A stretch of 64,000 nt of DNA from Nonlabens antarcticus (GTDB taxonomy: Bacteria; Bacteroidota; Bacteroidia; Flavobacteriales; Flavobacteriaceae). A program made the translations under genes and the position numbers. Positions within the stretch are counted from its first letter, which is position 1. Each line of letters begins with the position of its first letter. Where the stretch lies: the NCBI RefSeq assembly GCF_015356755.1, contig NZ_JADFCO010000065.1, positions 62,001-126,000 of the forward strand, written 5' to 3'. Positions 41,653 to 57,202 of the stretch are shown piece by piece. The notes under the pieces were generated by a model. It was not told the origin of the DNA and did no database searches. It was given only the letters and a program-made list of their open reading frames with translations.

Positions 41653-42389
41653 TGGTAGAAAAAATAGCTGTTGCTGTAGATGATTTGACCGTCGCCTATA
41701 ATTACAAACCTGTACTCTGGGATATTGATTTATCAATACCTGAAGGAGTACTCATGGCAATCGTGGGACCTAATGGTGCGGGAAAATCTACTTTAATCAA
41801 ATCCATTCTGGGAATCATCGATCCTATTGCTGGATCTGTTGCGATTTTTGGAAAGCCTTATTCTAAACAACGTGACAAAGTCGCCTACGTACCGCAGAAG
41901 GGAAGTGTAGACTGGGATTTTCCTACCACGGCCCTGGACGTAGTGATGATGGGAACTTACGGCTCGTTAGGCTGGATTAAAAGACCGGGAGCTAAGGAGA
42001 AAAAGCAATCGCTGGAAGCTCTAGAGAAAGTAGGAATGCTAGCTTTTAAAAGCCGACAAATTAGCCAACTTTCAGGCGGGCAACAACAACGTATTTTCCT
42101 AGCTAGAGCCCTGGTACAAGATGCAGCGATTTACTTTATGGATGAACCTTTCCAAGGTGTGGATGCCACTACTGAAATTGCAATCATCAATATTTTAAAG
42201 GAGTTAAGAAAAGCTGGAAAAACTGTTATTGTCGTACATCACGATCTACAAACGGTTCCAGAATATTTTGATTGGGTGACTTTCTTGAATGTAAAACACA
42301 TTGCCACCGGTCCAGTCAAAGATATTTTTAATGATGATAACCTAACCAAGACCTATGGGATTAATTATAAAGTAGCGGTGCAGAAATAA
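41652..42389 (+). CDS. Metal ABC transporter ATP-binding protein
   Basis: A 245-residue ATPase: Walker [10 protein letters not shown], signature LSGGQQQRI, Walker [14 protein letters not shown] and switch His in VIVVHHDL. It powers the metal importer with the two downstream permeases. The heptamer array ATGAGGT x9 begins on the last base of its stop codon, putting about 200 bp of repeat-laden DNA between it and the first permease gene. Confidence 0.95.
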
Positions 42390-42451
42390 TGAGGTATGAG
42401 GTATGAGGTATGAGGTATGAGGTATGAGGTATGAGGTATGAGGTATGAGGT
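42389..42451 (+). repeat. Heptamer array ATGAGGT x9
   Basis: Nine perfect tandem copies (63 bp) starting at the stop codon of the ABC ATPase. The same unit forms an array at 57090-57145. Confidence 0.95.
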
Positions 42452-42506
42452 AAAATTTAAATAAATATGATGAGAAACAACAATTTAATCATTTAATAAA
42501 AAACAA

Positions 42507-51933: not shown

Positions 51934-52090
51934 CAACACAACTCTCAAAATAATAAAACCCCAAAAACTCCTTTCCTAAAAAGAGGAAAGGTCGATTCAA
52001 GGCGATAGCAGTGAAAATGGATAGGTTGAAGTTCCACAACATTTGAATGAATTCCAGAACTAGAAACAAGCTTAATTGCAACTTCAACCA
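51934..52090 (-). repeat. Direct repeat, copy A
   Basis: Closely matches copy B; shared core includes ATTGCAACTTCAAC and CCACAACATTTGAATGAATT. On the minus strand it reads GVVEVAIKLVSSSGIHSNV…HFHCYRLES. Confidence 0.88.
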
Positions 52091-52199
52091 CTCCTGATTG
52101 CATCACCGTAAACGGCGAAGCCAATCTGTCCTCCCCTGTTTCTAGGCGAGGAGCCGTTGATATAGTCCTATTATGATTTGGAATAAACACTACTTGAAA

Positions 52200-52354
52200 C
52201 AACAAAACTCTCAAAATACTAAAACCTAAAAATTCCTTTCCTAGAAACAGGAAACGTGAATTCATGGCGATAGCAGTGAAAACGGATAGGCTGAAGTTCC
52301 ACAACATTTGAATGAATTCCAGAACTAGAAATAAGCTTAATTGCAACTTCAACT
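52200..52354 (-). repeat. Direct repeat, copy B
   Basis: Second copy, offset 266 bp. On the minus strand it reads GLVEVAIKLISSSGIHSNV…RFHCYRHEF then a stop within the repeat. Confidence 0.88.
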
Positions 52355-52434
52355 AATCCGTATTGTTTTACTGTACAAGGCAACAATCTGTCTTCGCCTA
52401 TTTTAGTAATGACCGGAAATCGTTTTATAGTTGG

Positions 52435-52489: not shown

Positions 52490-55400
52490 CTACCCTACCA
52501 CAAAATTCACAATTTTACCGGGAACAATAATCGTTTTACGGACTACTTTTCCTTCCAATTGCTCTTGAACTTTATCGTTCTCCAAAACCATTTTTTCCAA
52601 CTCATCTTTAGAAACATCAGTTGGTAAATCAAGCGTGAATTTCATTTTTCCATTGAAAGAAATTGGATAAGTTTTGCTGCTTTCTACCATGTGTTTTTCT
52701 TCAAATACTGGGAATGCCGCAGTACTGATGGATTCTTTGTGTCCTAATAAAGACCACAGCTCTTCTGCGATATGTGGCGCATATGGAGAAACCAGAACTG
52801 CCAGTGGTTCCAAAACCTCGCGGTTGTTGCATTTTTGAGCGGTCAGTTCATTGACGGCGATCATAAAACTGCTCACGCTGGTATTAAATGAGAAATCCTC
52901 AATATCCTGACGTACTTTTTTAATTGTTTTATGCAAGGTCTTCATGCTGTCTGGCGATGCTTTTTCATCGCTCACATTAAAACCATTGTCATCATGATAC
53001 AGCTTCCACAGCTTTTTCATGAATCCGTAAACTCCTGTGATTCCAGCCGTATTCCATGGCTTTGCCTGCTCCAGCGGACCTAGAAACATCTCGTATAACC
53101 TCAAGGTGTCTGCCCCATATTGATCACAGATATCGTCTGGATTTACGACGTTGTATTTAGACTTGGACATTTTTTCTACTTCGCGGGAGACTTTGAATGT
53201 ACGATCTTGTTCAGTGATAAAATCAGAGTCCGCAAAATCAGCTCTCCATTTTTTAAATTCAGAAATATTTAAATTATTGTGGACATCAACAATAGATACG
53301 TCTGAATGAATTTTCATATCGCCAATGGACAGAATATTTGGATCAATTAAAGAATCATCAATAGAGTCGACGAAGTTTTTTAAATTTTCAAAGCTCCATT
53401 CGTTATTTAGTTCCACAACAGTTGGTAAATCATGGAAATTCTTTTCGTAAAACTCTGAACTAATGAATAGATCTGGGAATCTATCATTGAGTTCTTCCAA
53501 GTGCTTTATTTGGTTTTTAGTGTAATTTCTAAACTTATCTCCAGCAGTAACAGGAAACATCATCGTTACTTTATGGACAAAAGCACTTTCCCCCAAAATC
53601 ATCCCTTGATTGATCATCTTTTGGAACGGCTCGATAACAGTGATTTTGCCCAAATCATGCAGCAACTTTATCCAAAATCTACTGTACAACAAGTGACCCG
53701 TTGCGTGCTCGCTTCCTCCTATATATAGATCGACGTTCTGCCAGTATTCTTGCGCTTCGCTGGAGAAGATTTCTGTTTCATTATTGGCATCCATGTATCT
53801 GAACATATACCAAGAACTTCCTGCCCAGCCAGGCATAGTGTTGAGTTCTAGTGGGTAGATTTCATTCTGATCGCCAACCCATCCTAAATCCTTCCCAAAA
53901 GGAAGGACTTCATTTTTTCCAGGGAAAAAATTAGGACGTTGTTCTAATGCTTCGGTGATTTTCTTTAAAACTGATTCAAGTGAGTTTGTGATTTGTTCAT
54001 TTGTAAATCTTAAAACTTTGTACCCTAGCTTTTGCTCCAGCTTATGAGTTCGAGCGTCATCTTTATCAATTTGAAACTCGTGATATTTTCCATCAACCTC
54101 AACAATTAACTTTCTGGTAAGGCAAACAAAATCAGGGATAAATTCGCCTATCGGGTGTTGCTGTCTGAATTTATACTCTAGTTTTTTTCCTTTTAATTCT
54201 TTCCATAAAGTCACTTCTGCATCCGTTGGATTTTTACGCATTTCTTGAGCTCGCTCCAGCAATGTAGAGGCGATCTCAGGCTTAGCCGTAAAATAACCTA
54301 AAGCGGACTTCTCCTCAGTTTCCGAAAAACTAGCTTTTTCTGAAGAAGAAGAAGTTCCCTTCCCTTTGGGAAGGGCTAGGGATGGGTTGGCCACAACTTT
54401 ATTATTCACCGCATCCCAATACCATTCCTTAGCCCTTCCCAACGGCGGCGCGCCATCCTCAGTCGGCAAATATTCATCTACTTCTGGAAGCTCCAGCGGT
54501 AAATACTTACGATCAATCATTTGTGGCAAACCGTCCTTATAGTAAACCGGGAATGGTTCGCCCCAATAACGTTGTCTAGAGAAAACGGCATCGCGCAGGC
54601 GATAATTTGTTTTTCCTTTTCCTGCGCCTGTTTCTTCGAGCTTTTCAATGGCAGCTGCCATGGCGCCAGATTTGTAGCTCAACCCGTTGAGGAACTCGCT
54701 GTTGGTTAATTTTGTATCGTCTTTTGCTGCGTAGGCCTCTTCGCTTATATCGATGCCTTCAAAAATATTCTTGATTTCTGGCATTCCGTTTTTTTCTGCA
54801 AAATGGTTTGCAAAAGCATGGTCGCGTTCATCGCCGCAGGGAACGGCCATGACGGCGCCAGTTCCGTAGCCCGCAAGTACATAATCGCCTATCCAGATTG
54901 GGATCTTTTCGTCGCTTAATGGATGCGTGGCGTAGGCTCCCGTAAACACTCCAGAGATCGTTTTGACATCTGCCATGCGCTCGCGTTCTGATCTTGCAGA
55001 TGTTGCTTTTTTATAGGCCTCTACGGCCTGTTTTTGCTCTGCGGTTGTGATGATGTCGACCAACTCGTGCTCTGGTGCAAGCGTCATGAAGGTGACACCA
55101 TAGATGGTGTCTGGTCTGGTGGTAAAGACATCGATTTTAAGATCTTTCTGAATAGCATCAGCCCCATTGCCTGCGGCATTTCCCCAAAGGGGAAAATTTC
55201 CATCAAGTTTAAATGACACCATCGATCCTATCGACTTCCCGATCCAGTTGCGCTGAATTTCTTTGATGGATTCACTCCAATCGAGATCTTCCAAATCGTT
55301 CAATAAGCGGTCTGCAAATGCGCTTATCCGCATCATCCACTGGCGCATTTTTTTGCGCACGACTGGATGGCCGCCGCGTTCTGAAACGCCGTTGACGATC

Positions 55401-56083
55401 TCGTCGTTTGCGAGTACAGTTCCCAACGCTGGACACCAGTTCACTTCAGTATTTGCTAAAAATGTCAACCGGTAATCGAGTAATATTTCCTGCTTTTCGT
55501 TTTCCGTAAAAGCGTTCCATTGTGCCGCGTTGAACTGTTGTAAATCTTCTGTAGTTGCAGCATTGATGGAGGTTGTTCCGCTTTCGCGAAAGCAAAATTC
55601 CAGCTCACTTATAGGACGTGCTTTATTTGCAATATTATCATACCAACTGTCAAAAAGCAGGATAAAAATCTCTTGTGTGTATTTATAATAATCGGGTGAC
55701 GACGTGCGCACTTCCCGCGACCAGTCAAAGCTAAAACCGATGCGATCCATCTGCTCCCGGTATCGCGCAATGTTATCTTTTGTAGTGATCGCTGGATGTT
55801 GACCCGTCTGAATGGCGTACTGCTCTGCCGGTAACCCAAAGCTGTCGTAGCCCATGGGATGCAATACATTGAAACCGGTGTGGCGTTTGTATCGACTCAC
55901 GATATCACTAGCAATATATCCTAGCGGATGACCCACATGAAGCCCGGCACCACTAGGATACGGAAACATATCGAGCGCATAAAACTTAGGTTTATCAGAA
56001 TGATTCTGGGCATGGAAAGTGCCATTATCTTTCCAGTGCTTTTGCCATTTCGCTTCAATTTCCTTGTGATCGTACAGTAACAT
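52490..56083 (-). CDS. leuS: Leucyl-tRNA synthetase with in-frame DUF559 nuclease-like insertion
   Basis: 1,197 residues from the ATG at 56083; Bacteroidota LeuRS is usually about 920-950. The catalytic HIGH motif is HVGH (49-52), and KMSKS is at about residue 970. The editing domain and TMPGWAGSSWY are present. Residues about 565-737 are a foreign insert placed between RAKEWYWDAVNNKVV and the TMPGW motif: a DUF559 domain whose FIPDFVCL…KLIVEVDG core looks intact. Two further palindromic repeats are translated: GCTTTCGCGAAAGC as FCFRESG (about 165) and a CCCCTTTGGGG element as NFPLWGNAAGNGAD (about 296-308). The segment before KMSKS is also longer than usual. The gene must presumably work, as no second leuS is seen. 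Confidence 0.93.
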   Translation of the reverse strand: MLLYDHKEIEAKWQKHWKDNGTFHAQNHSDKPKFYALDMFPYPSGAGLHVGHPLGYIASDIVSRYKRHTGFNVLHPMGYDSFGLPAEQYAIQTGQHPAITTKDNIARYREQMDRIGFSFDWSREVRTSSPDYYKYTQEIFILLFDSWYDNIANKARPISELEFCFRESGTTSINAATTEDLQQFNAAQWNAFTENEKQEILLDYRLTFLANTEVNWCPALGTVLANDEIVNGVSERGGHPVVRKKMRQWMMRISAFADRLLNDLEDLDWSESIKEIQRNWIGKSIGSMVSFKLDGNFPLWGNAAGNGADAIQKDLKIDVFTTRPDTIYGVTFMTLAPEHELVDIITTAEQKQAVEAYKKATSARSERERMADVKTISGVFTGAYATHPLSDEKIPIWIGDYVLAGYGTGAVMAVPCGDERDHAFANHFAEKNGMPEIKNIFEGIDISEEAYAAKDDTKLTNSEFLNGLSYKSGAMAAAIEKLEETGAGKGKTNYRLRDAVFSRQRYWGEPFPVYYKDGLPQMIDRKYLPLELPEVDEYLPTEDGAPPLGRAKEWYWDAVNNKVVANPSLALPKGKGTSSSSEKASFSETEEKSALGYFTAKPEIASTLLERAQEMRKNPTDAEVTLWKELKGKKLEYKFRQQHPIGEFIPDFVCLTRKLIVEVDGKYHEFQIDKDDARTHKLEQKLGYKVLRFTNEQITNSLESVLKKITEALEQRPNFFPGKNEVLPFGKDLGWVGDQNEIYPLELNTMPGWAGSSWYMFRYMDANNETEIFSSEAQEYWQNVDLYIGGSEHATGHLLYSRFWIKLLHDLGKITVIEPFQKMINQGMILGESAFVHKVTMMFPVTAGDKFRNYTKNQIKHLEELNDRFPDLFISSEFYEKNFHDLPTVVELNNEWSFENLKNFVDSIDDSLIDPNILSIGDMKIHSDVSIVDVHNNLNISEFKKWRADFADSDFITEQDRTFKVSREVEKMSKSKYNVVNPDDICDQYGADTLRLYEMFLGPLEQAKPWNTAGITGVYGFMKKLWKLYHDDNGFNVSDEKASPDSMKTLHKTIKKVRQDIEDFSFNTSVSSFMIAVNELTAQKCNNREVLEPLAVLVSPYAPHIAEELWSLLGHKESISTAAFPVFEEKHMVESSKTYPISFNGKMKFTLDLPTDVSKDELEKMVLENDKVQEQLEGKVVRKTIIVPGKIVNFVVG
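53874..53911. repeat. DUF559 element inverted repeat, arm 1
   Basis: CCAACCCATCC, spacer, CCTTCCCAAAAGGAAGGACTTC; itself contains a short hairpin CCTTCC/GGAAGG. Confidence 0.8.
54351..54391. repeat. DUF559 element inverted repeat, arm 2
   Basis: GAAGTTCCCTTCCCTTTGGG then AAGGGCTAGGGATGGGTTGG; complement of arm 1 with a few changes and small gaps. Confidence 0.8.
55161..55197 (-). repeat. CCCCTTTGGGG–CCGCAGG repeat, in leuS coding
   Basis: On the minus strand reads TTTTCCCCTTTGGGGAAATG then CCGCAGGCAATGGGGC. Near-identical to the intergenic copy at 57203-57241 but with one base removed from each side of its second stem. Confidence 0.85.
55580..55593. repeat. GCTTTCGCGAAAGC palindrome, in leuS coding
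   Basis: Exact copy, read as CFRES in LeuRS. Confidence 0.9.
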
Positions 56084-56102
56084 GTGGTCGTAATTAAGGG
56101 CA

Positions 56103-56110
56103 CAAAAATA
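56103..56110 (-). promoter_or_regulatory. -7 box upstream of leuS
   Basis: TATTTTTG on the minus strand, 20 bp before the leuS ATG; no well-spaced TTG. Confidence 0.4.
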
Positions 56111-56172
56111 GGCTGTTTGCAACAAGTAAGAAACTTATGGCGTTGTAAACCCAGACAGCTCTGGAACTTTGT

Positions 56173-56180: not shown

Positions 56181-56208
56181 CTCTCTTAATCCCTTGCAAC
56201 TGCAATTT

Positions 56209-57087
56209 ATGGCATCTTCTTCTTCTTATCAGAAACGCCGCGTGTTTAGCTCCTATTTTTGGGTAGTGATCAGTGTATTTTTGGTTTTATTTATGCTGGG
56301 ACTTCAGGGGTTTTTCCTCCTTAATAGTCAGAAATTAGCTGATTACTTCCGCGAGCAGGTTCCTATGTCGATTTATTTTAAGGATACCGCTAAGGATATT
56401 GAAATGCAGCAATTAGAGAAATCGCTACAAATGGCGGATTATACTAAAAGCGCTATTTTTGTAAGCAGCGAGGAAGGTGCTAAAAAAACCATTGAAGATC
56501 TGGGTGAAGATTTCGTTGCTAAACTAGACGGCTTTAACCCGATCCCCAACTCCATCGACGTGCGTTTGAATGCACAGTTTGTGGATGATAGCCAGATCCA
56601 GCAGATTGCTGATGATCTTGCGGCCAAGGATTTTGTTCAAGAAGTGAGTTATGACAAACCGCTGGTTTCCCTATTGAATGAGAACGTAAAACGCATCTCT
56701 TTCTGGATGTTGATCGTTAGCGGAGTGTTTATTTTTATCGCGTTCCTCCTGATCAACAGCTCCATCAGATTATCAATTTACGCCAAACGTTTTACCATTA
56801 AAACCATGCAAATGGTAGGTGCCACAAAAGGATTTATACGCATGCCGTTTATTTTGACCAGTATTAAACTGGGCGTCATCGGTGCTTTATTAGCCCTAGT
56901 GGCATTGGGCGGTGTAGTGTACTGGATGGATGGCTATGTTCCAGAATTGGAGATTTTGCAAAATTATAAAATGCTCGCGATTTTGTTTGTGGGCGTTTTG
57001 GTTTTTGGGGTATTGATCAGTCTAGTGAGTACGTTTTTTGCAACGACGAGATATTTGAATTTGAGAACGGATCAGCTGTACTATTAG
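56209..57087 (+). CDS. ftsX: Cell division protein FtsX-like ABC permease
   Basis: A 292-residue inner-membrane protein. One N-terminal helix (about 20-42), a large periplasmic domain (about 43-165; VPMSIYFKD, FNPIPNSIDVRL) and three C-terminal helices match FtsX. FtsEX controls peptidoglycan hydrolases at division; no ftsE lies nearby. The ATG at 56209 was chosen over a TTG five codons upstream because it begins the typical MASSSS N-terminus. Directly followed by a heptamer array after its stop. Confidence 0.9.
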   Translation: MASSSSYQKRRVFSSYFWVVISVFLVLFMLGLQGFFLLNSQKLADYFREQVPMSIYFKDTAKDIEMQQLEKSLQMADYTKSAIFVSSEEGAKKTIEDLGEDFVAKLDGFNPIPNSIDVRLNAQFVDDSQIQQIADDLAAKDFVQEVSYDKPLVSLLNENVKRISFWMLIVSGVFIFIAFLLINSSIRLSIYAKRFTIKTMQMVGATKGFIRMPFILTSIKLGVIGALLALVALGGVVYWMDGYVPELEILQNYKMLAILFVGVLVFGVLISLVSTFFATTRYLNLRTDQLYY

Positions 57088-57089
57088 GT

Positions 57090-57145
57090 ATGAGGTATGA
57101 GGTATGAGGTATGAGGTATGAGGTATGAGGTATGAGGTATGAGGT
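57090..57145 (+). repeat. Heptamer array ATGAGGT x8
   Basis: Eight perfect tandem copies beginning 2 bp after the ftsX stop; same unit and placement as at 42389. Confidence 0.95.
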
Positions 57146-57202
57146 AAATTTCAAAAATTATTGGGAACCAACCTCATAAAATGATCAATGATATTGATGC
57201 GT

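Follow-up and report, generated by a model that had tools for sequence, protein, structure and literature searches.

The leuS gene of Nonlabens antarcticus carries a cassette that is read in frame with its host protein, leucine--tRNA ligase (LeuRS), and that consists of a DUF559 nuclease domain between inverted-repeat arms. We consider this cassette likely to be a selfish homing element that lacks a splicing device and is translated through the host frame. The computed support consists of the same in-frame anatomy at many sites, the arms, a conserved active site, and a patchy distribution; in addition, similarity at RecG peaks over the insert, and at MetH the insert has a sharp boundary on its 3' side. 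An earlier reading of the locus (the original prediction) had proposed a mobile, splice-less coding insertion with arms that act as linkers, perhaps homing by means of its nuclease, and the comparative data favor that view. In its favor are an empty site in a congener, 34 site labels, oriented arms, low-confidence linkers around a confident core, kinship with a homing endonuclease, and a homing footprint at two other host sites.

We propose that a Vsr-like nuclease with hairpin inverted-repeat ends would be translated along with its host and form an additional domain at the protein surface, attached by flexible linkers that would leave the host enzyme functional. The nuclease would cleave or nick those alleles of the host gene that are still empty, and repair templated by the occupied copy would spread the insert and co-convert its flanks. 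Jumps to new sites would be less frequent and may rely on the hairpin arms, of which short copies lacking the gene also exist. As for the broader proposition that DUF559 with REPIN-like hairpin ends constitutes its own class of mobile element in bacteria, one that would colonize surface loops of essential proteins as a translated domain that the host tolerates, home between alleles, jump between genes through its ends, shed short non-autonomous copies, and in time decay in place into new protein domains, we put the chances at about even.

The leuS cassette and its host gene

The window is the whole stretch of 64,000 nucleotides that was analyzed, and it contains the following features:

52490..56125, minus strand: leuS, leucine--tRNA ligase, the host gene (likely start 56083; stop 52490-52492)
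53873..54391, minus strand: whole in-frame cassette of 519 bp, or 173 codons, as bounded by the inverted repeats and the frame
54351..54391, minus strand: 5' arm (coding sense), hairpin-forming, a low-confidence linker when translated
53942..54259, minus strand: DUF559 (PF04480) Vsr-like PD-(D/E)XK nuclease domain with an intact D-F...E-x-D-G-x-x-H core
53873..53911, minus strand: 3' arm (coding sense), an inverted copy of the 5' arm, hairpin-forming, a low-confidence linker when translated

The gene is a single open frame of 1,197 amino acids (aa) from the ATG at 56083, and the leuS_bact profile matches its product with an E value of 4e-263, split over four stretches. PF04480 matches residues 609 to 713 of the protein (E 1.7e-33), and the genome-wide search with this profile returned the same domain at C65:115942-116259, which is 53942-54259 of the window (E 1.7e-33). 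The predicted in-frame DUF559 insert with inverted-repeat bounds is confirmed, with the frame kept over 519 bp, and the earlier bounds (53874-54391, residues 565 to 737) agree with ours (53873-54391). It had also been claimed that this LeuRS has approximately 250 extra residues. The cassette explains approximately 172 of these; the remainder is a lineage difference elsewhere in the protein, since the LeuRS of a congener (G010, L172:1504-4578), which has no cassette, reads 1,025 aa. This congener supplies the empty site that had been proposed as a check, its LeuRS being 85% identical over the query and continuous across the site. Sharing of the insert by all relatives, which was to count against mobility, is not what we observed: DUF559 is absent from the site in 29 of 29 other LeuRS loci read, including that of the congener.

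The arms of the leuS cassette align over 34 nt with 85% complementarity. Their alignment score of 24.5 lies above the 99th percentile (19.0) for mismatched flanks of other loci, the maximum of which is 30.0 because arms of different loci resemble each other; with shuffled flanks the maximum is 13.5. When the N-terminal 562 residues of LeuRS were used as a query, one place in the assembly matched at full length with 100% identity among the matches listed (the weakest of these having E values near 1e-8, with three more below them), and the gene in the window therefore appears to be the only leuS of its genome. The closest DNA to the cassette among the fetched loci was 71% identical over 271 nt (best-scoring match), and no close donor was found among those loci. 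The window's own copy may have moved.

Profile, catalytic core, and fold identify the cassette domain as a DUF559, Vsr-like PD-(D/E)XK nuclease. The nearest solved structures by sequence are 3hrl and the homing endonuclease I-Bth0305I (3r3p, E 8e-7), and the same two come first by fold (Foldseek E 8e-4 for 3r3p), with Vsr a weak match (E 0.026). A model of the cassette alone has a mean pLDDT of 80.9, with blocks of 89 to 97 over most of residues 41 to 150 and one block of 66, giving a mostly confident core (residues 38 to 152) between low-confidence linkers. The model of full-length LeuRS is of moderate quality (mean pLDDT 68.9) and has the same linkers at low confidence at residues 569 to 600 and 720 to 740. 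The arms are flexible linkers as protein and hairpins as DNA. The catalytic motif is retained in 119 of 121 in-frame copies, and dN/dS of the insert is 0.05 to 0.24 in pairs with usable dS (for L077 and L078, dN is 0). The nuclease presumably cleaves DNA, with empty alleles as its probable target, and the full-length host protein is probably made uncut. PADLOC returned no match.

Distribution over host genes and genomes

Five PF04480 matches are present in the window genome, namely, in leuS, in the cobalamin half of metH, at the C terminus of hisD, and in two short frames; the arms of the metH cassette measure 37 nt and are 86% complementary. Across larger sets, a DUF559 match occurs in 60 of 120 genomes of the family and in 171 of 296 Bacteroidota genomes. 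Among 29 DUF559 loci read in the family, which were not chosen by frame length, 12 sit in frames of at least 300 aa. A scan of named genomes gave 80 loci, from which 3 without a clean frame were dropped; in 59 of the 77 readable loci the frame that contains DUF559 is 230 aa or longer. This set was not selected by frame length but by closeness to a query drawn chiefly from in-frame copies.

From the Bacteroidota, the long-frame loci among the matches listed were fetched. The readable loci number 142, a set enriched for long frames. In 98 of these the domain is internal, in 16 it is N-terminal, in 7 it is C-terminal, and in 21 it is free (L070, counted among the 98, is an N-terminal fusion to HemF that passed the length cut). 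Cassettes of this kind stand in frame under 34 site labels among the internal loci, each unlabeled host being counted as one site. Internal hosts include LeuRS (at two sites), IleRS, ValRS, MetRS, MetH, RecG, IcmF, AroC, HsdR, and others. Most of the 20 hosts scanned with profiles have host-model matches on both sides of DUF559, and the host names confirmed by profile include MetH, HisD, RecG, IleRS, ValRS, MetRS, chorismate synthase, IcmF, HsdR, and an acetyl-CoA synthetase-like enzyme; the names of hosts beyond those scanned were read from motifs and are presumptive. Outside the Bacteroidota, we found three alphaproteobacterial records (L120, L137, and L138), all from draft genomes.

Occupancy of individual sites is patchy. 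At the E cut-offs used, the RecG site is occupied in 9 of 150 Flavobacterium genomes and MetH site 1 in 15 of 150; a MetH query in the congener G010 returned nothing, an empty answer that is uninformative on absence. LeuRS site 1, the loop preceding the TTRPDT strand of the editing domain, holds an insert in 8 of the 120 family genomes, with two inserts decayed and one (in G112) broken in frame. Two site-1 copies (L301 in G113 and L302 in G002) keep DUF559 in frame and have lost the E-x-D-G-x-x-H motif. A homing cycle predicts clustering by site, patchiness, decay, and insert-centered similarity, and these decayed LeuRS copies fit the decay stage that such a cycle would predict.

The LeuRS loops that accept DUF559 also hold, in L181, L185, L190, L303, and L304, short peptides resembling translated palindromic repeats, which we take to be HSELVSES- and SAVEGS-like. 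Separately, a Y1_Tnp (HUH) transposase-like domain lies in frame inside a long frame in L258 (G162:C1:142146-142379) and L273 (G165:C33:94827-95129), the hosts presumably being DNA methyltransferase-like, so DUF559 is perhaps not the sole nuclease with such a habit.

Inheritance and homing footprints

A DUF559 tree with 92 rows at 19 sites, built from a short alignment and containing many weak forks, requires 23 site changes versus a mean of 65.6 after shuffling. The few joins across sites, such as that between Flavobacterium MetH sites 1 and 2 (99*), suggest moves. On this DUF559 tree, the six rows of the LeuRS site-2 group, which includes the window copy, need 5 changes, 1 of them forced by starred branches. 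The LeuRS host tree has 47 rows and leaves out L087 and L103; to explain the state of site 1 it takes 11 changes, of which starred branches force 7 or more. Mixing with named loci in this host tree pointed to Flavobacteriaceae as the family of the window. Distances among inserts correlate with those among hosts (Mantel r of 0.68 for LeuRS site 1 with 18 of 19 rows, 0.65 for MetH site 1 with 16 of 17 rows, and 0.86 for RecG, hosts shorter than 55% of the longest being dropped), which argues that inheritance with losses makes up much of the history.

A few RecG and MetH pairs show signs of recent movement between species. In a RecG trio, where the flanks are intermediate, pS values for host, insert, and flank are.232/.025/.104,.312/.025/.130, and.316/.025/.181, and a separate RecG pair gives.480/.164/.397 (one of its genomes, G511, being 68% complete). 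For the MetH pair L294 and L300 the values are.626/.076/.511 (P of 2e-19), and similarity drops sharply at the 3' end of the insert; both loci come from incomplete metagenome-assembled genomes (G508, 76%; G533, 77%), and only the 3' boundary is visible, since the G508 contig ends inside the insert. Fisher P values for these footprint pairs range from 3e-6 to 2e-19, and a weaker MetH pair has a pS of.547 for the host and.340 for the insert.

The strong footprints are extremes among 170 RecG and 190 MetH pairs. The insert has a lower pS than the host in 138 of the 170 and 180 of the 190 pairs, totals that are raised by three MetH pairs in each of which a species is compared with itself (pS of 0). 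In distant pairs the mean pS of insert versus host is.62 versus.73 for MetH and.65 versus.73 for RecG, a deficit small enough to indicate that the wide gap in the footprint pairs is not inherent to the insert. The RecG loci L081 and L161 run in the opposite direction, with.565 for the host and.719 for the insert (P of.013). Other pairs within single genera reveal little of the effect: dS is 1.67 for the insert and 1.43 for the host at LeuRS site 2 (L067 and L071) and.50 and.70, respectively, at MetH (L144 and L169). From the divergence in the few footprint pairs we infer that, within the cassette family, the insert has moved between alleles at one site, with co-conversion of the flanks in RecG. 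Two candidate recent jumps were rejected: the Prevotella loci L098 and L099 are the same site, and L098 and L101 have arms that are ~97% alike but only 73% identity in the DNA between them.

These data also bear on the possibility that DUF559 is an old accessory domain with a cellular job, such as DNA repair, defense, or tethering, that has been lost repeatedly. Purifying selection on the inserts, their clustering by site, and the Mantel correlation with hosts would all suit such a domain, and its presence in restriction genes could hint at a function. However, the hosts are functionally unrelated (synthetases, MetH, AroC, IcmF, and RecG), occupancy of the RecG and MetH sites in Flavobacterium is patchy at the frequencies given above, similarity peaks are centered on the insert, and catalytically decayed copies still sit in LeuRS frames. 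We regard this explanation as unlikely.

Arms, rival element classes, and known systems

The arms share a layout across loci, in which the outer part reads CC(T/C)CACCCC-AACCC and is accompanied by a hairpin that is C-rich/G-rich. When the two flanks of each locus were compared, complementarity at 36 of the 98 internal loci was above the 95th percentile for mismatched flanks (4.9 expected), the other 62 staying at or below this control. The same level was exceeded at 11 of 15 loci with an N-terminal domain, at 4 of 7 with a C-terminal one, and at 16 of 37 where the domain is free. The C-terminal locus L050 has the longest pair without a mismatch (42 of 42 nt). The P3 motif occurs in the right orientation at 42 internal loci in the 5' flank, 32 in the 3' flank, and 11 in both, versus 5 (5') and 8 (3') for the opposite orientation; with the reversed motif the corresponding counts are 3 and 7. 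Within 400 nt of DUF559 over all 142 loci, the counts are 61 (5'), 44 (3'), and 21 (both), with 26 finds in the wrong orientation.

One narrow arm pattern has 534 occurrences in 59 of the 296 genomes (reversed control, 2). It is found in 48 of 126 genomes with a strong DUF559 match (our cut being an E value of <1e-15) and in 11 of 170 others (Fisher P of 1.4e-11, in a test that ignores phylogeny). The arms may take part in jumping. In L224 and L240, a solo arm is translated in frame without DUF559, in hosts that are presumably CysRS-like and cyclase-like frames.

That the arms would prove to be a widespread repeat in the window genome was not borne out. The metH arm pattern (up to 3 mismatches) found only its own two arms across the genome, the leuS 3'-arm pattern found only itself across the window, and the whole leuS element had one further arm-like match in the genome, at G000:C57:37262-37290 (94% over 31 nt), without DUF559. 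A different narrow arm pattern has four copies in this genome, all noncoding, and on these arm-pattern searches we rejected a high-copy arm repeat there. Nor did the anticipated duplicated target appear: an exact direct repeat of at least 2 nt occurs in 2 of 60 clear-ended elements versus a permuted mean of 4.2, with ends that were set by alignment and may be some bases off.

A link to Y1/TIRYT transposases was examined because a published TIR motif resembled the arms. The P3 arm was found in the right orientation at 0 of 30 Y1_Tnp loci in 18 genomes, picked mostly for arms or in-frame DUF559 and with several loci weak or cut by contig ends, and in the wrong orientation at 2; the arms were therefore rejected as Y1/TIRYT transposase ends. 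This result weighs against DUF559 as passive cargo that hitchhikes on palindromic arms spread by another enzyme or by recombination, as do conservation of the DUF559 motif and the concentration of arms in genomes with strong DUF559 matches (kinship ignored). Such hitchhiking would account for short arm pairs without DUF559 (L238 and L239) and for arm-rich genomes with few or no DUF559 matches (20 copies and none in G141; 180 copies and one in G391), and in-frame palindromes without a known transposase are documented (PMC3733652). On balance we find it quite improbable. Removal of the cassette from RNA or protein as a cryptic intron or intein is harder still to credit and very improbable in our estimation, for although base pairing between the arms could join the ends of the element in RNA (z of -5.6 for the stem) and its 519 nt divide evenly into codons, Rfam gave no match of any kind, group I and II introns included, up to an E value of 1 in 53400-54900, no Hint or intein family was found in Pfam or NCBIfam scans of LeuRS (E up to 0.01), the inserts are under selection as protein, and copies also occur at protein ends (16 N-terminal and 7 C-terminal).

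A homing element translated through its host shares features with several known systems. Like intron and intein homing endonucleases, the cassettes show clustering by site, patchiness, decayed copies, and insert-centered similarity peaks; they differ in having no detected intron or intein, a nuclease in the host frame, and inverted-repeat hairpin ends. Inteins and mobile introns are thought to persist in essential genes through splicing. The likeness to I-Bth0305I (3r3p) is one of a Vsr-like fold. REPIN/RAYT systems also have inverted hairpin repeats around a gene and short copies elsewhere, but RAYTs are HUH Y1 transposases lying between REPs, whereas the element here encodes a DUF559 nuclease, and Y1 loci lack the right-oriented arm, as described above. 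With DDE insertion sequences and MITEs the cassette shares terminal inverted repeats but not a target site duplication.

Rickettsia palindromic elements lie in frame in genes that include those for tRNA synthetases and repair, and CGTC-tagged REPs are reported to lack a dedicated transposase (PMC3733652). Both are short repeats without a gene, whereas the cassette is 519 bp long and carries one; in addition, its arms lack the CGTC head and the A-T first stem positions of CGTC REPs, and identity with these is unsupported by the published description of head and stem (PMC3733652). The ShiLan domain of a phage methylase is described as an actively homing in-frame insertion without detectable splicing, and a lone LAGLIDADG insert without a splicing element is mentioned as apparently vertically inherited (PMC11855218). 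The cassette resembles ShiLan in that the host frame runs through it and no splicing is detected, but the HNH nuclease of ShiLan lies in another frame, whereas the PD-(D/E)XK nuclease of the cassette lies in the host frame and in many cellular genes. The terms "inverted repeat" and "palindrom" are absent from the main text of that paper (PMC11855218, term search), whereas the cassette has inverted-repeat ends. Yeast WHO genes also home without self-splicing beside a host gene, but their position is the end of FBA1, where gene fragments are duplicated, whereas the cassette is an in-frame internal domain (PMC7282806). Caulobacter VsrA belongs to the same DUF559 family and is Vsr-like, but it is a free-standing protein proposed for mismatch repair rather than an in-frame insert (PMC12907096).

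Among the papers listed in searches of the open-access literature, we found no earlier description of in-frame DUF559 cassettes. If our preferred reading is true, a homing nuclease can survive unspliced in essential genes when it is small and borne on linkers made from its own DNA ends. This would be a route by which proteins gain domains, would supply a candidate enzyme for a palindromic repeat family, and would give a DUF family a function. Such fusions would read as odd multidomain enzymes, a warning for annotation.

Other repeats were observed in the window. Two 161-bp repeats, 86% identical, lie downstream of the gene at 51956-52381, and the free DUF559 locus L005 is flanked by sequence that resembles them by eye. 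A palindrome, CGCTTTCGCGAAAGCG, has many copies at 3567-63874 of the window, at least one in coding sequence, including a copy within leuS at 55573-55611. Two arrays of the heptamer ATGAGGT lie at 42361-42489 and 57055-57183, the latter where the coding frame 56194-57087 ends.
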